IMG/VR virus record: IMGVR_UViG_3300033149_006435
Coordinates: 1-48,755 of that record
Strand: one strand, 5' to 3'
Source: a virus
Length of the DNA: 48,755 nucleotides
Below are positions 115-12,256 of this stretch, piece after piece (the first letter of the stretch is position 1; each line of letters starts with the position of its first letter). The position numbers and the translations under genes are program-made. The notes under the pieces were generated by a model. That model was not told the DNA's origin. It did not search any database and worked only from the letters and a program-made list of their open reading frames with translations.

Positions 115-3100
115 GTAAGTATTACGGAGAAGCGGACTGGGAAAAAGAAGATGGGGCTGGCCGTAGGGAGGATTATTAGATGGGCGAGGGTGCTCGAAGA
201 CGAAGAGATATCGGACAGGGAGAGGGCCGTCACCATCGGTCATGAAGGGTTTGAGGTCTTCCTTAACATGTTTGGCTACGGTCACCCAACTGTTATTAAA
301 GGTCTTAGTATATTATCTAAGTATAGGAAGATGAGGAAGGGAGAGAGTGATGCGGAGTATGCAACTCGGCTGAAGGAGATATTCGCTGACCAGGTTGGAG
401 AGGCCTGGGCAGACAAGGCGTTGAAGAGCAGAAAGCATAAAGGCTTGATGAACTGGCTGCGTATCTTCTATAATGAAGTAAGAGCCGTCATTAGGAGCGC
501 CAGGATGGGCGTGTTGGCTGACGTGGCGGAAACTATGACAGAGGCACTTACTGCGGAGAAGATAGCCAGCGTCGGCGCTCATGTCAAAGAGCTGGGCTCC
601 ATGGAGGCTGTGTTAGAGAGGTACCCTGGCGATACGGAGGTGGATAGGTTTGCCAGACAGAGAGCTGAGGAACTGTTCGGGCCGAAAGAGATGAATGAAG
701 ACGAGATTGACGCCTTCCTTGATGCCTATGATGAAGAGCCAGAGTTTAGGTCTCCCCGTGAAGATATGGAAGTACTTGCAAAGCACCTGAATGCTGCAGG
801 CGTTAGTCGGGAGACTGCGGGGAGGGTACTACGTCTGGCTAATCAGGGAAAGGCGGACGAGGCCGAGATGCTTGTGGATAAGCTAAGGGAGGGCAAGATA
901 GACGAGGTCTTTAGGAGGCGTCTGCTTTTGGCCAGCATTCGTTTAAGGCAACTGAGAGGGGTGGAGGTGAGCTTTAGGAGTCCTGGGGAGCCTGAAGCCG
1001 CGGCTGAGGGGTTTGCTGTTCGAAGGACTAAGCATGCTACAAGAATTATAGGGCCTGGGATGAAATATGTTGGGCATAGGCGTCTTTATGTAATGGATGT
1101 AAGGAATACCCCCGAGTCTTTTGATGCTGTAAAAGTGCAAAGGATCGTGGATGCTTGGGAAAAGACGAAGTCCCCCCTTGGGTATGTGAGCTACAATGAT
1201 ATAGTGAGTGAGAGTGGTCTGCCCATCGAGGATGTTTTAAGGAACTTGAAGGGGATGCACGTAAGAGACCCTCACGGTGTCCGCTTCAACGTAAACCGTT
1301 GGGGGGAGAATGTCTATGTGAAGCTAGTCAAGACCGACTGGATTCCTCCACAATTCCGCGATCCCAATACGGCATATAAGATACATGAAGACGCTAAGTC
1401 TATAAAGGAAAAGATACACGATATTTGGCCTATGATACACTGGCTACGATCGCCAGAGGCTATTGCGGAGGCCTTAACAACTAGGGATGCCAACACCCCT
1501 ACCGAGCAGAAAGTGTTTGAGAGGTACAAGACGGTAGTCACTGGTCTTGTCGAAGCTGACTTGAAGAGGAGCATGGCTACTGGTCTTGATGCAGAGAGGT
1601 TTACCGAGTGGAAGGCCGAGCTTACACAAGAGCAGCAGCTACAGGTTAGGGAGGCTGCGGAAGCTATATATAAAAAGGATTTGGATGCTTTAGGTAAGTA
1701 CGATGAAGCTGTACAAAGGGCGGCTGCGAAGGTTGTTGAATACTTCTATTGGATGCGGGCTGTATACCGAAGCTTTTTGAAAAGGATGATAAATAAGCAT
1801 ATGCCTAAGAGGCTTGTTAGCGCATATACTTATATGATAGAGAATGGTCTCACCCCAGAAGAAACAGTTCAGGTCTATGATAAGGTGGACGTTGCTGAGC
1901 TAACTGAGCTTTATGATAGATACCGCGCTGCCGACACATGGGGGCTTGACAGCTACCTACCCAATTTTGAGCGAGGGCAGTATAGACTTGTCGATGATAC
2001 AGGTACTACAAGGGCCGTGGCGCTGACTGTAGCTGATGCTAAGAGGAAGGGAAAGAGGCTGTTGGAGGACGACCCTGACATTAAGTTGACTATAGAGTCG
2101 GGGATGAAACTTCACGACGTTGTCTCCACTCGGGTGAGTAGGGGCCTATATTGGCGTTTGGTTAGTGAATTTAAAAAAGCATTTGGCGACTTCAACGCTA
2201 GCGCCGAGGACGTAAGGGCGGCGTTGAGGGGTAAGATAGCTATTGAGCCAGCGCCTAAGTTTGCCGGACCCACAATGAAACGCAAAGGCGTGTTGAAAGG
2301 GGAAGACAATATCTTTGATGTTATCTACGCATACTCGTATGCAATGCACAGTAAAGTGTTTCTTGACCCTGTCTTAGACGACGCCCGCGGGGTGTTGTCA
2401 TCGCTTGGCCCGAACCTTCGCAAGGCTCTCCAGCAGCAGATAGATGCTACTAAAGGTAAGTACTGGATAGAGGATGAGATATTTGATAGGCTTATGCAAG
2501 CCGCTACTCTTACAGAGACTGATAAGGGTGTGATAAGGGTTGTTAAGAGTCTGATATCTCCAATGGTAGAGAGGTCAGAGGGAGCCATCGCTACCAGGTA
2601 TGTGGCGAAGGCGAGGATGATGGAGGGTTGGCTAAAGCTGGGGTATAGGCCTGTGGCGGCTTTGATAAACTGGGCTGGAGGCAACGCGCATACATGGGTG
2701 AAGACAGGAAGCACTTACATGAGGGCGGCCAGCGCCTTTCTGAAGACCGAGGAAGGCAAGGCCTTTATGGAGCGTAATAAGTGGGCGATGGGCATTGACC
2801 TTGCCCTCGATGTACGAACGGACGTGGTTAAGGCGAGGCGAGTGGCGCCACTATGGTCTCCGCTTGGACTCTTCGGCTACCCTGAGCCACAGATTAGGCG
2901 GCTTGGACTTGCCGCTAACTACTTGTATGCTAAGCGAAAGTTAGGCATGGGTAGTGATAAAGCTGAGGCCTTCGCCAGACGAGCACTTCGCTTTCAGAAC
3001 TTCACTTACAACATAGCCGCCCTTCCGCACATACTACGCTCTCCCGCTGGGAGACTGGTTGGGCAGTTTAAGACATATCTTATTAAAGAGATAGAGTTCA

Positions 3101-4314: not shown

Positions 4315-5496
4315 TTACAAAACTTTTATGAGTGTATCGTTTGGGTCAGAGTGGTCGAACTCGCAAAAGTGCATCTGCCTCAACGCGCTCATAATCTCTC
4401 TCAGGTCGTTGTCAGTGACATCTTGGTGAAAGCGGCGGAGGAGCTCGCTAGCCTTCATCTGCCCCTCTTGCTGGAGAGTTTGCATAATCCTATACTGAAC
4501 GTCTGCTAAGCGAGATGTGCCTATCCCGCCAAAGGTGCGTCCCATAGGCTTCTCTACTTCTAGGAGGGTCTCCAATGCCCTTGTAAAGTCCTCTTCAGTC
4601 AAGACCATGCCGCCTCCCCTGGAGGCATTCATTATCATACAGAGTTTGAGTAAGTGCACTGGGCGACGTGTACAATAGCCGTCAAACTTGCTATCCTCAA
4701 AAGGCTTATCTTCAGAGTGCTTCGTATACCAAGACACCCACTCGTTCCAAAGCCCGTCCGTCAGCTTGTATTCTCCTTCAGTTATCATAATGTCGTCTAG
4801 GTCGGCCTCTAAGTCGTCCTTTACTGCGATCTCGTCTTTGGTCAAGGTCGGGGCAGCCACTACCTTCCCCTTCTTGGAGGCGTAAACGAATATGATGCGG
4901 CTTAGGAGGCCACTACCCCATGCCTCTTCAGTCAGTGTAGCCCTAAGCAGCTCGGGGGTAGTAGCTCCAAGAAGATTGACCCAAGTAGCTGGTATCTCGT
5001 CCACCAATTCTTTGTTCTTGGGTCTGTATATCCATGGAGCCCTACAATCGTACCAATCTGTTAGGTATGAGATAAGCTCTCTCATCCCGTAACCGAGGAA
5101 CACAGTAAGCTCTGGGCTAAAGATAGTAAGGGAACTATGTTGCCCTTTTATTACGCCGGTCTCTATATCAACGTCTGCCCCAGTCGTGCTCCTATTCAGC
5201 TCTCTTATAAGTCCTTGCTGGGTGGTGCACTCGGCGGCTAAGTGTATACCCTTCTTACGAAGGAATTCAAGGGCTGGCTTCATGGCTGTGCCCTTTCTCG
5301 CGCCGCTAGGCCCAATTAATACTATGTACATGTTAGGGAAGAACTCCGCTCCTACTCCCCACTCTAGTCTACACTTACGCCGTAGGCAAGCTGCTATGAC
5401 GCTTATACCCACCCACTTCTTATACAGTTCGCAAGGCTCACTATTGTGCGTATACCTCATCCAACCGTCCAACCAGTCGGGTAGTCTCCTCGCCAA
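4315..5496 (-). CDS. DUF3987-like helicase/primase-associated ATPase
   Basis: A 393-residue P-loop protein. Walker A is GPSGARKGT at residues 62-70. The layout, with an N-terminal helical part, the P-loop ATPase, and a C-terminal winged-helix-like tail near residues 330-390, resembles DUF3987 proteins, which in phages act as replicative helicases beside a DNA polymerase. It lies 10 bases downstream of the polymerase gene and is probably co-transcribed. The family call rests on the motif and the neighbourhood. A loader or another replication ATPase remains possible. Confidence 0.7.
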   Translation of the reverse strand: MARRLPDWLDGWMRYTHNSEPCELYKKWVGISVIAACLRRKCRLEWGVGAEFFPNMYIVLIGPSGARKGTAMKPALEFLRKKGIHLAAECTTQQGLIRELNRSTTGADVDIETGVIKGQHSSLTIFSPELTVFLGYGMRELISYLTDWYDCRAPWIYRPKNKELVDEIPATWVNLLGATTPELLRATLTEEAWGSGLLSRIIFVYASKKGKVVAAPTLTKDEIAVKDDLEADLDDIMITEGEYKLTDGLWNEWVSWYTKHSEDKPFEDSKFDGYCTRRPVHLLKLCMIMNASRGGGMVLTEEDFTRALETLLEVEKPMGRTFGGIGTSRLADVQYRIMQTLQQEGQMKASELLRRFHQDVTDNDLREIMSALRQMHFCEFDHSDPNDTLIKVL

Positions 5497-5506
5497 CGGT
5501 GCCCTC

Positions 5507-7933
5507 CTAATGAGCGATCTCTTCGTACGTGGCTCGTATTGTCGCGGCCAGCTCGTCGACGCCGCCCCTACTATAATGTAGCTTCTTCATATCTCTAAAG
5601 TTCAGCCCCATCTTAAGGTCGACGGGAATAGTAAACTCTGTCCCTCTCCACACTAACGGTTGCTCTAGGCTAGCCTTCAGTTCAAGTAGTGCAGCGGCAT
5701 GGTACTCCCATCCGACAGAGATTGGTATTTGTAACCATATACTGTCATGTACTTGGTTGAGGAGCTCGACATGACGAAAGTGCTCCTGGTCATGGTAGAC
5801 CTTTAGTAGGCCACGCTCGTTAATTATATCGGGCACGGTACTCTGTGGTATGAAGGCATAGGCGTCACGGAAGAGGTCGCTTCCCCACTCTGCTAGGAAT
5901 AGTCTGGTGCGACCAAAAAGATTGGTGAGACGTCTGGAAAGCCTGAGCTCCTCTCTCACCCACGCATGGTATGAGCTTCGCACTTCCGGATACACCCTAT
6001 GCCAACTCTCTACAAGCTCCTTGGCCTCTCTCTCTGGTAGTTGGTACTGGAGGGCGAACTTCTTATACCCCATATCGTAAGCAAGCTCGTGGTTGGTTTT
6101 CTTCCCCCAAAAGCGCTCGCTGAACCTGCCAGTGCCTAGAGGAGACGACCCTTCCTCGTCGCTGACGTCTTTTGGGTCTTTGCCAAACATCAGGCCAGCA
6201 GTAAGACGATGGACATCGTCGCCTCTGGCAAAGGCCTCCCGTAAGCTAGGCACAGGCCCTATAGCAGCGACTATTCGTGTCTCCGCCGTAGCTAGGTCTG
6301 GTTCATACGCAATGTACCCTTCGTCTGCTATAAGGAACTCCTTAACCTCTGGAGGCTGGTTCTGCAGATTCATACCAGTACCGAATATAGTCTTGCTGCT
6401 ACTAAACCTCCCATTCTTCGTCCCCACGGGATTCACGCTGCTACGTAGGCGATTATCTTCGTCTATCTTTAGGTCAAGGTAAGTACCCTTCAGTTTCCTC
6501 AGACCTCTTATATCTAATATAGTCTGCGCCTCCGGGTACCCTCTGCGGGCTATCCTTATCATGGCCGTTTCATCGTAGGTGACTGTCTCCTCTTTTATCC
6601 CATCCTTCGTCACCCACTTAGTATAAGGCGTAAGCCCTTTCTCATTGGCGAAGTAATCTTTTATCTGCGCACTACTATTGGCATTGAGCTGACGGCCAGT
6701 CTGTCTAACAAGCCTAGCATTCAGCACCTCCAACTTCCTATCACACTCTTTAGCCTTATTAGCCATGCCCTCTGTATCAACCTTGACACCCCTGGCAAAC
6801 ATGAAGAGAAGCGGCTCGATAGTGGCCACTTGCCTTTGGTAAGTTCTCACGTTCCCCTTTAGTCTGTCGGCTATCTTAGAAAATGCCTCCAGTGCGATAG
6901 CACTGTCAAGGCCAGAGTATATCCAGAACTTATCCTCGCTAGTGCCATACTTCATGTGCATCTTGCCATCTGCCTTGTAGTAAGGCTGTCGTGTGTACTC
7001 AGTCGTGACGAAGTCCAGCCCAAACCCGAAGTCCGGATACAGTATCCTATGAGCTACCATGGTATCATCCATGTTGGTAGTTCTAACACCGTACTTTGCA
7101 TACATGAAGGAGGAGTCAAAGAGAATGTTGTGGCCTACCTTCTTCACTTTGACATCCTCCAGTATGCCAGCCAATGTTTTCATAACGCCGACTTCGTGTT
7201 CAGGCGTGAAGTATGGCCTGTTGCTTTTTGTAAGGGGAACGACGATGACGTCGTCCGGCGCCCTTGCTACGGAGAAGCATGACAGCTCTCCCCTAAGCAC
7301 CTCAATGTCAAAGCCTATGATACTAGGAAGGTGTGATAGATAGTGTATAACGTCGTCGTACGTAGGCTCCGTTATAATATTACGCTTCGGCAAGACTATG
7401 TCTGGCGTGGACGACTCACTCAAAGCCAGACATAAGTCCCTTGCTATAAGATGTCGCCAGATATACCGCCCCCTAAGTGCGCCAGCTGGATGGAACGTGG
7501 GTACTATCTTCTTATTAATAAAAGGAGAATGCAGGATGGAGCCACGCCACTGCGTGATGCCCCAGCGCCTAGTAAGAGCGTACAGGGCAGGGTTGCCTAA
7601 TGCTATGACAACATTAGCTTTTGTCATCCTTAGTTCAATATGAAGAGCCTCTTCATACTTGCTATACTCAGCTGTAGTCACCACGCCTTTACGAGTCTTG
7701 CGTATAAAACTCTCAATACCATCGCCGGGAGGCCTCTCCTTAACCACGTTAGTAATATAACAAGAGCTGCGAGCTATGCCAGCTATCTCCAAAAGAGAGT
7801 TCAGCAGGCCTCCGGCTGGAGCGCGGTGGTAAAAGGGAACTCCGTGCTTCTCTTCCTTCTCGCCCGGCGCCTCACCAACTATAGCAATAGGCGATGCCGG
7901 GTCGCCCTCAGGTCTGACTATTACCTTCTGCAT
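5507..7933 (-). CDS. polA: family A DNA polymerase with N-terminal uracil-DNA glycosylase domain
   Basis: An 808-residue fusion. Residues about 15-175 look like a family 4/5 uracil-DNA glycosylase (IVGEAPGEKE, PAGGLLNSLL, ALGNPALYAL, TFHPAG). Residues about 190-345 are a complete 3'-5' proofreading exonuclease (FDIE; NILFD; YSGLDS). The polymerase follows, with TGRFSSS, motif A DLATAETR near residue 546, motif B K-x-x-NHELAYDMGY near 609-624 and motif C QVHDS near 728. Motif C has Ser where Glu is usual, and motif A lacks the usual SQIE. The start at 7933 follows GAGGAAGG. It is the replicative polymerase, and glycosylase-polymerase fusions are known in some phages such as SPO1 relatives. Confidence 0.93.
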   Translation of the reverse strand: MQKVIVRPEGDPASPIAIVGEAPGEKEEKHGVPFYHRAPAGGLLNSLLEIAGIARSSCYITNVVKERPPGDGIESFIRKTRKGVVTTAEYSKYEEALHIELRMTKANVVIALGNPALYALTRRWGITQWRGSILHSPFINKKIVPTFHPAGALRGRYIWRHLIARDLCLALSESSTPDIVLPKRNIITEPTYDDVIHYLSHLPSIIGFDIEVLRGELSCFSVARAPDDVIVVPLTKSNRPYFTPEHEVGVMKTLAGILEDVKVKKVGHNILFDSSFMYAKYGVRTTNMDDTMVAHRILYPDFGFGLDFVTTEYTRQPYYKADGKMHMKYGTSEDKFWIYSGLDSAIALEAFSKIADRLKGNVRTYQRQVATIEPLLFMFARGVKVDTEGMANKAKECDRKLEVLNARLVRQTGRQLNANSSAQIKDYFANEKGLTPYTKWVTKDGIKEETVTYDETAMIRIARRGYPEAQTILDIRGLRKLKGTYLDLKIDEDNRLRSSVNPVGTKNGRFSSSKTIFGTGMNLQNQPPEVKEFLIADEGYIAYEPDLATAETRIVAAIGPVPSLREAFARGDDVHRLTAGLMFGKDPKDVSDEEGSSPLGTGRFSERFWGKKTNHELAYDMGYKKFALQYQLPEREAKELVESWHRVYPEVRSSYHAWVREELRLSRRLTNLFGRTRLFLAEWGSDLFRDAYAFIPQSTVPDIINERGLLKVYHDQEHFRHVELLNQVHDSIWLQIPISVGWEYHAAALLELKASLEQPLVWRGTEFTIPVDLKMGLNFRDMKKLHYSRGGVDELAATIRATYEEIAH

Positions 7934-7961
7934 GGCCTTCCTCTACTGTTTAGCACAGGCG

Positions 7962-9377
7962 TTATGACCGCTCCCCAGTTATGGGGTCAGTCACGCTGTC
8001 AATCCCGTACGATGTATAACGCTTCGGCTCTCCCTCGTCCACCCTTACAACATACGGTCTCTTATAGGGCTCGTTCAGTTCGTAGCCAAAAGCGTACATC
8101 AGTAAGTTAGATGCTGCAAGTATCGTGTTGCCCGAGCCTAGGAAAGGTACTATTACATCGGCATCTGACCCGACAAAGGTGCTTATTATCTCGACCATAA
8201 GTTCAATGGGGCGCTCCGTCGGGTGTATCTTGCGGACAGGAGGGACTGGCTTAAAGTCGAACACATTGCGTCTCCCCTGCCTTGCCAAAACTCCAGACTC
8301 CTTTGTCCCGTAAAAGAACATCTCATAGCAGCTGGCCAAGTATATCTCCGGTCTCATAGTCTGTCCTGTAGGCTTTGCCCAGATAGCCGGTATAGGCCTA
8401 GTCTTAAACCCAACCTTCACCATTAAGCTATGAATGACGTGAAACCATTGAGGACCAAACCAGACTATCACCCAACCGTTCTTCGTAAGCACGCGATAGG
8501 TCTCCATAAGTACATCGCCCATGAAGTCTTTATATATATCAGGCTTGACCTCATTATAGTTATCCGTAGCATAGACAGAGCCATACTCCCTCTTTAGCTC
8601 TTGTAGGCCAATACTATACGGCGGGTCTATCTCTGCAAGCTGCACGCTGTCAGCAGGCACATCCTTAACCTTTTCAAAGAAGTCGCCCACTATGTAAGCG
8701 TCCCTCAGGCCAGCCTTAATCTTCTCCATCGGAGTGGCTGCCATCTTCTTCTCAATCTCTGCAGCTCGCTGACTAGTGTCCGCCTTCTTCTTCATTTGCC
8801 GAAGTATTTTATGAGCCTCCGTCTTATTCTTCGCTTTCTTCAGCTCAGGGAAGAGGTCTATGGCTCTGGACAAAGCAATGTCCTGACTAAGGCCAGGGTG
8901 CTCTATCCCTAACATGCTTGCCGTGTCACGAATAGAGTGACCTGGGGCGTCTGGGGAAGTGCTAGCCTTCTCCCCATACTTCTCCACCATCAAGAGGTGA
9001 ATCCTCTCTTTGGCCTTAATCTCTTCAACATAGTGGAGGTCCTTCCTTCTTATATTTTCGGCTAGCTCTATGATAGCTAAATCGAGTCCCTCTAAGCTGG
9101 AGTCGTATACGTTGGCGGGGATATGGCCAGGAGGGACGATAGTCTTACCAAACTTATACTCCTCTTTTATGCCGCTAACTGCAGCCAGCCTTCTCCCACC
9201 CACCAACAGGCGGAACGGCTTCTCTCCACCCTCCACCTCGACCACGGCGACGGCGTGTATAAGACCTATCTCCCTAATATCCTGTCGTAGACCGTTTATA
9301 TCCCCAAGGTCTTCCCTATTACGATCCTTCGTTTCAATATCGCTTATGGGAATCGTCTCCAAATACGTGCCCTTCAC
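7962..9377 (-). CDS. ParB/sulfiredoxin-domain and DNA methyltransferase fusion
   Basis: A 471-residue protein. Residues 1-115 match a ParB N-terminal nuclease-like domain (VGGRRLAAV, ELAENIRRKDLHYVEE), followed by a ParB helix-turn-helix-like stretch near 145-190. Residues about 230-450 form an N6-adenine or N4-cytosine methyltransferase with catalytic DPPY near 250 and the SAM-binding PFLGSGNT near 405. DPPY precedes the SAM motif, so this is the beta-class order. Its start shares ATGA with the stop of the preceding gene. Likely roles are protecting phage DNA from restriction or marking sites at replication. No cognate restriction gene lies nearby. Confidence 0.9.
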   Translation of the reverse strand: MKGTYLETIPISDIETKDRNREDLGDINGLRQDIREIGLIHAVAVVEVEGGEKPFRLLVGGRRLAAVSGIKEEYKFGKTIVPPGHIPANVYDSSLEGLDLAIIELAENIRRKDLHYVEEIKAKERIHLLMVEKYGEKASTSPDAPGHSIRDTASMLGIEHPGLSQDIALSRAIDLFPELKKAKNKTEAHKILRQMKKKADTSQRAAEIEKKMAATPMEKIKAGLRDAYIVGDFFEKVKDVPADSVQLAEIDPPYSIGLQELKREYGSVYATDNYNEVKPDIYKDFMGDVLMETYRVLTKNGWVIVWFGPQWFHVIHSLMVKVGFKTRPIPAIWAKPTGQTMRPEIYLASCYEMFFYGTKESGVLARQGRRNVFDFKPVPPVRKIHPTERPIELMVEIISTFVGSDADVIVPFLGSGNTILAASNLLMYAFGYELNEPYKRPYVVRVDEGEPKRYTSYGIDSVTDPITGERS

Positions 9378-9595
9378 TCATTACCTCCAATCCGCTTTAA
9401 TACTTCCGCGGCCTGTTCTGGTGTCATCCTATCAATCATGTCGGCGAGCGAGTTCTTCTTAATCTTAGCGCTACGCTTCCTAGACGCAGGGTTGGGCGTA
9501 TGCCTCCTATTCCTTACCGCAAGGATAAGAGAAAGGGCGCTGGCGTTACTCATCTCAGATATGCTAAGCTTACCCAAGTCTTTGAGACTGGTCAC
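9374..9595 (-). CDS. small basic protein with C-terminal DRxTPEQA motif
   Basis: A 73-residue basic protein that shares a 4-base ATGA overlap with the downstream ParB-methyltransferase gene and overlaps its upstream neighbour by 26 bases, so translation is probably coupled. No known domain was recognised. Its C-terminus, MIDRMTPEQAAEVLKRI, resembles the end of the protein at 17150-17494, IIDRLTPDQADFLVTKL. This suggests a shared short interaction motif. Confidence 0.7.
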   Translation of the reverse strand: MTSLKDLGKLSISEMSNASALSLILAVRNRRHTPNPASRKRSAKIKKNSLADMIDRMTPEQAAEVLKRIGGNE

Positions 9596-9812
9596 TTATA
9601 GCTCCTTCCACGTCCCATGTTATATGAACTTTGCGTGCTATGATGAGACCTACCAAGATGTCCTTATCATCCCTCTCCAAGCCATCTACTACATCGCTGA
9701 GGATGGCAGAGAGGAAATCGTTCCTCAAACCCCAGTGTACCTTCTTGTCCAGTCTCGCCTTAATACCTGGCGGCACGTCCGCTATTACTCGTACTCGTCC
9801 TTCAGCTGACAT
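9570..9812 (-). CDS. small ribbon-helix-helix-like protein
   Basis: An 80-residue protein. The N-terminal half, a beta stretch RVRVIADVPPGIKARLDKKV followed by two predicted helices (residues 26-47), has the shape of a ribbon-helix-helix DNA-binding domain. The assignment is by pattern only. ATG at 9812 follows GGAGA at about 8 bases. It is the first gene after a strongly folded 120-base intergenic RNA segment, so that element may control its expression. It is a candidate for the protein that binds the genome's palindromes, though nothing in the sequence links them. Confidence 0.65.
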   Translation of the reverse strand: MSAEGRVRVIADVPPGIKARLDKKVHWGLRNDFLSAILSDVVDGLERDDKDILVGLIIARKVHITWDVEGAISDQSQRLG

Positions 9813-9835
9813 ACTATTCGTCTCCGATTATTTAT

Positions 9836-9958
9836 GACGAGCGGGGCGGGCCGGATTACCACGTTGCCTTACCTAGAACTGAGACTAGTAAGGTCGTACC
9901 GGCCCGAAGTGTTCTTCAGACATAATGGCCTCAGTTGTATAGCCGTCGCCCCGTCGTC
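9836..9958 (-). ncRNA. candidate structured RNA with loop-to-loop pseudoknot
   Basis: No gene fits the 157 bases between 9813 and 9969. Read on the minus strand, they fold as follows. An outer stem pairs 9836-9848 with 9947-9958 (GACGA and GGGGC with their complements, small bulges). A small arm at about 9906-9917 is GAAG-AACA-CTTC. A GC stem pairs GGGCCGG at 9848-9854 with CCGGCCC at 9899-9905. Inside this stem is a 9-bp hairpin (9867-9876 with 9885-9893) with one bulge. Its 8-base loop contains CTCAGTT, exactly complementary to AACTGAG at 9930-9936. It lies just upstream of the gene starting at 9812. It could be a cis leader or a processed RNA; no known class was recognised. Confidence 0.6.
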
Positions 9959-9969
9959 AAAGGCAGTTG

Positions 9970-10398
9970 TTACGCCGCCGGCGGATTGCACCGGACAATG
10001 GCGTTACTGGCAGGATACTCGTCGGTGGCCTCTCTCGTCTCCACCACAGCATACCCCTCTTTCCCTTTCCAGGAGGGAATCTCCCTATTGCCGTTCTTGT
10101 CTTCTTCTCCGAGCTCTAGCTTCTTGGTAATCTCGCAACCAAAAGCTCTGCAAAACTGCTGCATGTTTCCTTGATACATGTTGTCGATGCCTTCATCCTC
10201 TCCTGTAGGGAAGACTAGATAGTGATTGAATATGGCGCTGTTCCTATCCATAGCTCCCTTAAGAGAGACTGTAATCATCTTGTTGCCGGCCTTGCTCTCG
10301 CCAAAGACGGCCTTTACAATGACGAGTTTCTGTTCTCCGTCCTCTAAAAGGACTGGAGGTGTGTAGTCGTTGGCGAAGGCAATGTCTACATAGTCCAT
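9970..10398 (-). CDS. DUF669-like single-stranded DNA-binding protein
   Basis: A 142-residue protein. The start at 10398 is chosen because AAAGGAG from the adjacent palindrome lies 7 bases upstream; a longer reading to 10440 would run through the palindrome. Features fit DUF669, a phage family acting as ssDNA-binding protein: a short N-terminus, SKAGNKMI, a FCRAFG segment near residue 80, and WKGKEGYAVVETR followed by YPASNAI near the end. Its place between the DEDDh exonuclease and the polymerase block supports a replication or recombination role. Confidence 0.7.
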   Translation of the reverse strand: MDYVDIAFANDYTPPVLLEDGEQKLVIVKAVFGESKAGNKMITVSLKGAMDRNSAIFNHYLVFPTGEDEGIDNMYQGNMQQFCRAFGCEITKKLELGEEDKNGNREIPSWKGKEGYAVVETREATDEYPASNAIVRCNPPAA

Positions 10399-10407
10399 GC
10401 TTTTCTC

Positions 10408-10430
10408 CTTTGGTAAATAATTTACAGAAG
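10408..10430 (-). promoter_or_regulatory. 23-bp palindrome, copy 2 of 9
   Basis: Same element as at 4292, but with one changed base in one arm (ACAGAAG instead of ACCGAAG) and the centre base opposite to the other copies relative to transcription. It lies between the exonuclease stop (10437) and the DUF669-like start (10398) and supplies AAAGGAG as ribosome site. Confidence 0.8.
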
Positions 10431-10436
10431 GGTGGT

Positions 10437-11036
10437 TCATCCAAGCTCAAGCGCCTCTCTTACTTCATCGGCAATCCTCCTTTCTACTTGTACGAAGACA
10501 TCCTTAGCTAGCTTAGCGTCGTACAAGGCCCCATGTGCCTTCTCCTTATCAACAGTTACACCTATATGCTCGGCAACTGTAGTAAGACTAAAGTTAGGTA
10601 TACGTGGCCTCTCTGCACGTAGAGCATACGCCGCTAGAAGCATGACGTCCAATGGAGGGTGGAAGAACCAGGAGCCAAAGTACCTATCATTGTTCTTCTT
10701 AAACCACTCCCTTGTTACGTCTACATCAAAATAGGCATTGTAGCCAACCCAATGGAGCTTGTCCGTCTTCTCATACCTATCCACATATCTACTAAGCAGC
10801 TCGATAAACCCCTCATGCGCCTTGGCAGGAGGCAACCACTGCTTAACCTCATCTTCCGTAACACCGTGGACTTTCATGGCCTCTCTATCAATCACGTCTT
10901 CTGGAAAAGGCCTCATCCTGAAGTCAAACTCCTCTGTAAGCTTGCCGTTTACCTCGATCAAGCCAGCCAACTGTATAACTCCATGCTTCTTCGAATCCAG
11001 CCCGGTGGTCTCTGTATCTATAAAGATACACTTCAT
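10437..11036 (-). CDS. DEDDh 3'-5' exonuclease (DnaQ/ExoX-like)
   Basis: A 199-residue protein with the classic exonuclease I motif FIDTETTGL at residues 5-13. A second acidic motif, YNAYFDVD, lies near residue 100, and the C-terminal H-x4-D pair is AHGALYDA near residue 170, which places it in the DEDDh class. These enzymes remove nucleotides from 3' ends in proofreading, repair or primer removal. The polymerase at 5507 already has its own proofreading domain, so this is a separate activity. Its start shares a 4-base overlap with the preceding gene. Confidence 0.9.
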   Translation of the reverse strand: MKCIFIDTETTGLDSKKHGVIQLAGLIEVNGKLTEEFDFRMRPFPEDVIDREAMKVHGVTEDEVKQWLPPAKAHEGFIELLSRYVDRYEKTDKLHWVGYNAYFDVDVTREWFKKNNDRYFGSWFFHPPLDVMLLAAYALRAERPRIPNFSLTTVAEHIGVTVDKEKAHGALYDAKLAKDVFVQVERRIADEVREALELG

Positions 11037-11371
11037 TTCTTCCTACCTCCCTTCTTCGAGGCTGGCTGCTCCCTCTTCTCCCCAAGATCGGGATACAACG
11101 GCCCGCTGCCCGCGCTCTTCTTTTGGTCACTGATGGACTCTGTCTCTGTCGCCATGTACGCCAGGAAGTCTTGGTGAGTAACTATTGGCGTCTCCTTTTC
11201 TACAGAGGAGTTGAGGAAGTCCACAAAGTACGTAACGCCGTGAGCAGGACCTATAGGAAAGCGTTGGCCGAACTCGTCGACTATCCACGCCCTTTTATTG
11301 GCGACTATGATGTTAGCTATATAGCTGAAGTTGACATAGTCCCCTTTCTGAGTTTGATAAAACTGTATCAC
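11033..11371 (-). CDS. hypothetical protein in recombination block
   Basis: A 112-residue protein; no family was recognised. The first 75 residues look like a compact beta-rich domain (FSYIANIIVANKRAWIVDEF). The last 35 are charged and low complexity, ending in KKGGRKK. The start is GTG at 11371, preceded by GAGGAGG at 7 bases. The stop overlaps the exonuclease start by 4 bases, so the two are probably translationally coupled. It lies between the Sak4-like ATPase and the exonuclease and may be an accessory factor of one of them (inference from position). Confidence 0.7.
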   Translation of the reverse strand: MIQFYQTQKGDYVNFSYIANIIVANKRAWIVDEFGQRFPIGPAHGVTYFVDFLNSSVEKETPIVTHQDFLAYMATETESISDQKKSAGSGPLYPDLGEKREQPASKKGGRKK

Positions 11372-11395
11372 TGCGCTGCCTCCTCTTCTCTGAAG

Positions 11396-12256
11396 TTAAA
11401 ATAAAGGCGGCTTGTCCTCCGCTTCCTTTTCAAGGCCGACCTTTATCATCAGTTTCTTGATATTAAACTCTTCATACTTATTCAAATAGGGGGAGTTCTT
11501 GCCGCTTGGTACCTGTGCCAGCCTTGATTTAGCTATTATATTGCCGTCATTCTGTGTTAAGAGACGTACGGTATTACCTTTGGAGCTGGGCACCGCTTCT
11601 GCCCTATACACCTCGTCAAACATAGGCGGTATTTGCTCCTTCAACTTTCCCGTCAGTAGTGGCAAGGTGAGTATCCTCTCATTATCTCCATAGACCTCAG
11701 TAACCTCATGGCATATGAGATAGCAATTGCAAGGGAGGGAGAGGAAGTCGTCCAACGCCAGCTTCAACGCTTCCATCTGTATTTGCCAGTCTTTTTGGTC
11801 AGGTGTCATTTTCTTATTTATAATATAGTCATTATCTGGCATCATCTTCCCGCCAGTTTTTCTCACCTGATCCATAATACTCAGTGCCCATGTTGTAGCT
11901 GAGTCAAACACTAACGTACCCACTGCGTCAAAGTAGCCGCTGTTAGCCTTCTCCTTAAAGTCCTTTTGCCACCTATTGAACGTAGTCTCTTGCTGGCCGG
12001 CCTTGATACGGGAGCCGAAGGCACCCTCGAACCTAGCGTCCACGTTGATATTCTTCCCATCCACATATCTCTTAATAGGCGCCCAGCCGTGCCTATCAAA
12101 AGAGTATACGTGGACTGGCTTGGGGCAAGTCAGGATAGCCGACGTCTTCCACGTGCCTGCCTGCCCGTAGACCATAGTGTTATACCCTACTGACTCCATC
12201 TTCTGATACTGCTCGTGCACTTCTTGAGCAGTCTTGTTGATATTCAGTCTATCCAT
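11396..12256 (-). CDS. Sak4-like RecA-fold recombination ATPase (AAA_24)
   Basis: A 286-residue P-loop ATPase. Walker A is GQAGTWKTS at residues 31-39, with Trp in place of the usual Gly before Lys. Walker B is LVFDSAT near residue 115, and a polar patch ICHEV near 180 fits sensor regions of the family. The short RecA-core layout matches AAA_24/Sak4 proteins, which promote single-strand annealing or exchange in phages. It is flanked by a PD-(D/E)XK nuclease and close to a DUF669-like ssDNA-binding protein, the usual partners of Sak4. Confidence 0.85.
   Translation of the reverse strand: MDRLNINKTAQEVHEQYQKMESVGYNTMVYGQAGTWKTSAILTCPKPVHVYSFDRHGWAPIKRYVDGKNINVDARFEGAFGSRIKAGQQETTFNRWQKDFKEKANSGYFDAVGTLVFDSATTWALSIMDQVRKTGGKMMPDNDYIINKKMTPDQKDWQIQMEALKLALDDFLSLPCNCYLICHEVTEVYGDNERILTLPLLTGKLKEQIPPMFDEVYRAEAVPSSKGNTVRLLTQNDGNIIAKSRLAQVPSGKNSPYLNKYEEFNIKKLMIKVGLEKEAEDKPPLF

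Follow-up and report, generated by a model that had tools for sequence, protein, structure and literature searches.

The window analysed here consists of one viral record, 48,755 bases long. A run of minus-strand genes spans roughly 4.3 to 14 kb and encodes, in this order, an exonuclease family protein, Sak4, a small protein, a DnaQ-like exonuclease, P0002, P0001 (separated from P0002 by an intergenic gap), P0004, a fusion of a ParB-like protein and a DNA methyltransferase (MTase), a DNA polymerase A with a uracil-DNA glycosylase (UDG) domain, and a DUF3987 primase (Table 1). The gap had been described as the only long one in the replication block, and indeed it is the sole long gap within 4315-12256. 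P0001 has no Pfam match and is proposed, by eye, to be a ribbon-helix-helix (RHH) regulator; homologues occupy the equivalent place in several related loci (L012, L016, L020, L021, L025, and L049). Its Shine-Dalgarno (SD) sequence, GGAG at 9822-9825, and its start codon both lie outside the fold described below.

Searched alone, P0002 yielded no useful match. Iterative profile and HMM searches placed it in a family represented once in each of 150 loci; four of the eight members tested matched Pfam DUF669 above the cut-off, and some matched the PHROG "single strand DNA binding protein" (best 4.5e-4). DUF669 proteins adjacent to sak4 are phage single-stranded DNA-binding proteins (SSBs; PMC5928155), and by these profile matches P0002 is assigned to the phage DUF669/SSB family found beside sak4. 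Its longest ORF appears over-extended, because it contains a strong SD (AAAGGAG) as well as one copy of a palindrome; the true start is probably the ATG at 10398, which this SD precedes. The palindrome, TTYGGTAAATWATTTACCRAA, occurs in nine near-identical copies in the window, where none would be expected by chance. Most copies precede gene starts of one or the other strand by a short distance and extend into the SD, and relatives carry their own versions. These palindromes are candidate operators, possibly for P0001.

Table 1. Genes and predicted RNA features in the window, and folded RNAs behind or near ssb-like genes in related loci (coordinates of the respective locus).
Feature	Position	Strand	Remarks
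sak4 gene	11396-12256		
P0002, upstream gene, DUF669-type phage SSB homologue by iterative HMM family	9970-10440	minus	longest ORF
Intergenic gap between P0002 and P0001	9813-9969		157 nt
Branched RNA, four-way junction with kissing contact (predicted)	9836-9958	minus	MFE -53.4 kcal/mol, z -3.96
Outer stem, 5' strand	9948-9958	minus	GACGACGGGGC; pairs with 9836-9847; pair probabilities 0.97-1.00
Side arm	9919-9947	minus	GAC-GGCU-AUACAACUGA-GGCC-AUUAU-GUC; predicted fold
Kissing strand 1, side-arm loop	9930-9936	minus	AACTGAG; exact complement of 9877-9883
Small hairpin	9906-9917	minus	GAAG-AACA-CUUC; pair probability 0.98
Inner stem, 5' strand	9899-9905	minus	GGGCCGG; 7 bp with 9848-9854
Top hairpin	9867-9893	minus	CCUUACUAG-UCUCAGUU-CUAGGUAAGG; 9 bp; pair probability 0.97
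Kissing strand 2, top-hairpin loop	9877-9883	minus	CTCAGTT; duplex about -5.0 (loops only) to -7.8 kcal/mol
Inner stem, 3' strand	9848-9854	minus	CCGGCCC; abuts outer stem
Outer stem, 3' strand	9836-9847	minus	GCCCCGCTCGTC; one bulged C
P0001, downstream gene	9570-9812	minus	small protein; proposed RHH regulator
ParB-like/DNA methyltransferase fusion	7962-9377	minus	PHROG and Pfam matches
TTYGGTAAATWATTTACCRAA palindrome copies	4293, 10409, 15729, 17798, 23756, 25973, 33705, 40511, 45675		
R1	L099 4680-4747; L100 4691-4752; L101 4683-4752; L103 4686-4755; L105 4687-4751; L106 1806-1875; L107 4692-4759; L108 2000-2053; L132 2791-2856		
R2	L080 2821-2902; L392 426-505		82 nt
tRNA-like RNAs	L077 2205-2350; L381 5583-5737; L054 4480-4637; L025 499-618; L008 3643-3775; L059 2538-2730; L064 about 1565-1700		118-181 nt
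Long-stem element	L006 1128-1211; L010 5224-5302; L013 5663-5731		

The predicted RNA fold in the gap

Most of the gap is taken up by a 123-base stretch that, according to folding of its minus strand, very probably forms a compact branched RNA. The preliminary description had named an outer GC stem, a side hairpin, a GC stem, and a 9-bp hairpin, all of which were found by folding at the positions it gave, together with a small hairpin that it had left unnamed. The outer stem comprises 11 bp with a one-base bulge and likely stacks coaxially on the inner stem. The exact complementarity of CTCAGTT and AACTGAG, also pointed out before, was confirmed. In the minimum-energy fold both heptamers are part of hairpin loops, AUACAACUGA in the side arm and UCUCAGUU in the top hairpin, so that their pairing would be a true kissing contact compatible with the intact fold; the predicted kiss has 6 bp, or 7 bp once one closing pair opens. 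A nested helix forced from the two heptamers is 4.8 kcal/mol worse and has a probability of about 0.0004, and the branched fold is therefore preferred.

The fold is beyond chance, as had been supposed for the combination of helices and tertiary contact. Dinucleotide shuffles of the minus strand reached -37.9 +/- 3.9 kcal/mol, compared to -53.4 kcal/mol for the native sequence, and none of 200 was as stable; in a further set 2 of 1000 shuffles were at least as stable, and a loop-loop kiss of 6 bp likewise arose in 2 of 1000. Folding of the entire gap weakens the z-score to -2.95, and several other stretches of the genome reach a similar raw stability. The plus strand comes close, at -51.8 kcal/mol, as is inevitable with perfect stems. 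Support for the fold is statistical and positional.

Comparison with Rfam, which the preliminary description had proposed, gave no family match: none of the Rfam 15 families matched in the window at the gathering score, and a search of 9700-10100 up to an E-value of 5 returned chance-level matches only. Identity as a tRNA or tmRNA was rejected, because neither ARAGORN nor Rfam recognizes the RNA. Intrinsic terminators have a G+C-rich stem followed immediately by a run of U; here the outer stem is followed by the tail AUAAAUAAUC, which contains no U-tract, and this identity was rejected as well. No terminator-like site was found within 9500-10500, nor any promoter-like site on the minus strand around or ahead of the element, which is present as a single copy. 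A decayed gene, the alternative raised earlier, was also dismissed, since stops close all three sense-strand frames, the sole fully open frame is antisense, and no gene is found at this site in relatives. The absence of a GC-skew turn at 9.9 kb argues against a replication origin. As for the "riboswitch-like leader" previously suggested, a structured RNA between the genes, with pairing between two loops, is supported, but a riboswitch is not: the SD is not sequestered, the start codon is outside the fold, and the terminator/antiterminator part of an expression platform was not detected.

The site behind ssb in related viruses

No nucleotide homologue of 9836-9958 was found in phage records or, by blastn and nhmmer, among the loci collected first, and the collections searched contained no close relative and no alignable homologue of the RNA or of its very fold, although records closest to the window might be missing from them. 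Scans with the ParB-MTase or the upstream gene product as the single query protein likewise yielded no close relatives. Profile scans retrieved loci in which the polymerase is 40-48% identical or the methyltransferase up to 44% identical and the gene order is kept. A scan of bacterial genomes added five loci; behind ssb, L381 and L382 have a tRNA-like RNA and a hairpin.

The 170 nt behind the ssb-like gene were folded in 133 non-duplicate viral loci, with the DNA that follows the remaining genes in each locus as controls. The median z-score was -2.35 behind the ssb-like gene vs. -0.84 behind other genes, and values below -3 were obtained for 38 vs. 12%; part of this difference may arise because the ssb site is a real gap, whereas controls frequently extend into coding sequence. 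Enriched at the ssb site were terminator-like sites (36 vs. 4%) and perfect stems with a minimum of 10 bp (50 vs. 10%), as were stems of this length that enclose an inner domain exceeding 20 nt (22 vs. 6%), and most of the closest scored relatives possess a stem of at least 9 bp there. The contents of the site vary by lineage and include plain terminators or simple hairpins (T-runs accompany many of these), long stems with inner structure (L004, L006, L010, L013, L043, L085, L094, L111, and others), tRNA-like RNAs, and the motif R1. The place behind ssb is kept structured across the lineage without conservation of sequence or fold: related phages often have a folded RNA there, though almost never the same one, and the RNAs compared at this site showed no common core.

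Several of these RNAs recur (Table 1). R1, a hairpin motif of about 65 nt found in nine or ten loci (within the range L099-L108, and L132) and not elsewhere in the loci searched, lies approximately 7-15 nt past the stop codon of the ssb-like gene and has an SD just downstream. It consists of a covarying outer stem (CGGCGG/CCGUCGG), an inner hairpin whose loop reads GCCCCC, and a CCCUCC strand; 16 of its 24 pairs show compensatory changes, and G-U pairs are conserved. Rfam gave no credible match in the four loci tested, and R1 is a new motif. Its covariance model finds nothing in the window up to an E-value of 5. R2 is a new element behind the ssb-like gene, with the conserved blocks GGUAAGGCAAGCCGG...GCUCCGGUAAUCC and, between L080 and L392, one compensatory change in the long stem and one change to G-U. 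Two short blocks, AGGTAAGGCAA...GGTAATCC, are common to the window and L080, but homology to R2 is not claimed: the R2 covariance model misses the window (1.9 bits, wrong register), and local alignment lies within the range of shuffles. The paired blocks have eight matches in viral contigs, which is near a rough chance estimate, and among these the stem is present only in L080 (as L388) and L392.

Other relatives encode oversized, irregular tRNA-like RNAs directly behind the ssb-like gene, mostly with an acceptor stem, a Leu-like GGCGGAA 5' part, and a T-arm; CCA is encoded in L054. ARAGORN misses them in the loci tested. Those of L077 and L381 are homologous, and in them a variable hairpin replaces the D-loop position. 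The tRNA-like RNAs behind ssb resemble allo-tRNA-like and other irregular tRNAs (PMC7609411), from which the RNA in the window differs in lacking a T-arm and in being unmatched by tRNA models. Lastly, in L006, L010, and L013 a long-stem element with covarying stems carries GAGAGGCU...AGCAAUCC in an internal loop and is located behind the ssb-like gene or close to it; L010 has two elements, of which this is the second. The pair GAGAGGCT...AGCAATCC seen in these three loci was rejected as a wider motif, because most of its matches across viral contigs look like chance; only in these three does it occur at the ssb site together with the long closing stem.

Possible functions of the RNA

Conservation of the place without that of sequence or fold points to a generic signal, such as termination, 3'-end protection or processing, and the lineage-specific contents fit a need for a stable fold only. 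The same finding, a site retained behind ssb with neither sequence nor fold preserved, disfavors a riboswitch-like ligand pocket. We therefore favor, over a ligand riboswitch, a role as generic punctuation between the ssb message and the RHH-ParB/MTase-polymerase message, although we would put the chance of this being correct at about even. The RNA would lie within a polycistronic early message, directly 3' of the SSB-family (DUF669) gene and ahead of the RHH, ParB-methyltransferase, polymerase, and primase genes. The 11-bp stem stacked on the 7-bp stem would close the fold and the kissing contact would lock it, and this compact structure might stall RNases or direct them to the 3' end of ssb, by nuclease resistance or by cutting. 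An abundant ssb message could thereby be protected and parted from the downstream message, and the fold may set the ratio of the two operon halves. Stacked, the two stems could reach about 18 bp, and RNase III sites are near-continuous helices of about 20 bp; cleavage here is putative. At the same junction many relatives have an intrinsic terminator and others a different long stem or a tRNA-like RNA, and the version in the window is one without a U-tract. Yet a generic processing signal would need no kissing contact. The intrinsic terminators and RNase III-type hairpins of phage operons, such as the T7 early sites and lambda sib, are comparable as stable folds at a fixed gene junction, but they are single hairpins, whereas the RNA described here has a four-way junction, a kissing contact, and no U-tract.

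Since the element lies within a few nucleotides of the leader of the next gene, it could, by position alone, equally well act on that downstream gene. If it served in cis as the regulatory leader of the RHH/ParB-MTase operon, the RNA would bind a protein (e.g., SSB or RHH) or a metabolite and switch downstream expression. In favor of this, a compact fold with a kissing contact precedes a gene start, and the conserved CCCUCC of the sister motif R1 could, as judged by eye, pair with the SD that follows. A precedent is T4 gp32, which binds an mRNA pseudoknot; this translational operator, which overlaps the start of translation, is situated upstream of its own ssb gene. The intergenic RNA is likewise a pseudoknotted RNA tied to a phage ssb gene, but is placed downstream of it. 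In addition, its SD and start codon are free, a terminator/antiterminator pair is missing, the nested alternative is energetically remote, and relatives show no conserved core. We regard a leader as unlikely, although one that binds SSB or P0001 is the main rival reading; the riboswitch and tRNA-like readings are unsupported.

A DNA element (a cruciform or a replication or recombination site), or a chance fold without function, is improbable. Both strands fold about equally, replication genes flank the site on both sides, and other genome stretches are equally stable, but the single-copy element coincides with no turn in GC skew, the conserved G-U pairs of R1 favor an RNA of the message strand, and the site is structured across the lineage. 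Slightly more doubtful still is a degenerate or remodelled tRNA-like RNA, one of this lineage's irregular forms behind ssb, in which the long stem would be acceptor-like, the side arm D-like, and the arm stacked on the acceptor T-like, with an additional short arm and a D-loop/T-loop kiss. The order of arms agrees, no spacer separates the T-like and acceptor-like stems, the T-like loop ends in UAAUCC, oversized RNAs with true T-arms occupy the same site in L008, L025, L054, L059, L077, and L381, and in L064 the T-like loop is split by a hairpin. However, a canonical T-loop and the GG of the D-loop are lacking, the tRNA elbow does not work by seven Watson-Crick kissing pairs, and ARAGORN and Rfam (even at an E-value of 5) gave no match. 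Least probable is a free small RNA that is released by processing and acts in trans or dimerizes: its fold is self-contained and its complementary loops could pair between molecules, as in the packaging RNA of phi29, which is similar in size (about 120 nt), junction fold, and two complementary hairpin loops and forms rings on the portal by loop-loop kissing, but phi29 is another phage type with other gene neighbors, neither a promoter-like site ahead of the present RNA nor homologues were found, and it has no known target.

Two other RNAs are comparable in position. The STAXI motif comprises pseudoknots near genes for single-stranded DNA-binding proteins and possibly functions as DNA or RNA (PMC2864571). 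It resembles the RNA described here in being a pseudoknot element next to such a gene, but consists of tandem small pseudoknots, often with UUCG loops, whereas the window contains one copy without UUCG that the STAXI model of Rfam does not match. The L17 downstream element (PMC2864571) is also a structured RNA 3' of a conserved gene, in a 3' UTR position, but L17 keeps one fold, while at the ssb site sequence and fold change between lineages.

More broadly, and rather speculatively, phages with Sak4 and a DUF669-type SSB might maintain a fast-changing niche for structured RNAs behind ssb, ranging from terminators to oversized tRNA-like RNAs, of which the RNA described here would be a kiss-held, cloverleaf-like form. 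Such a niche could serve a common, so far unrecognized step, e.g., one by which the ssb message is protected, processed or autoregulated. To our knowledge, folded RNAs 3' of genes have seldom been described in phages. One junction behind a recombination SSB stays structured across a wide lineage while its sequence and fold turn over, which makes it a testable case of function without conservation of fold and points to places where new phage RNAs, like R1, R2, and the oversized tRNA-like RNAs, have been missed by homology-based catalogues.
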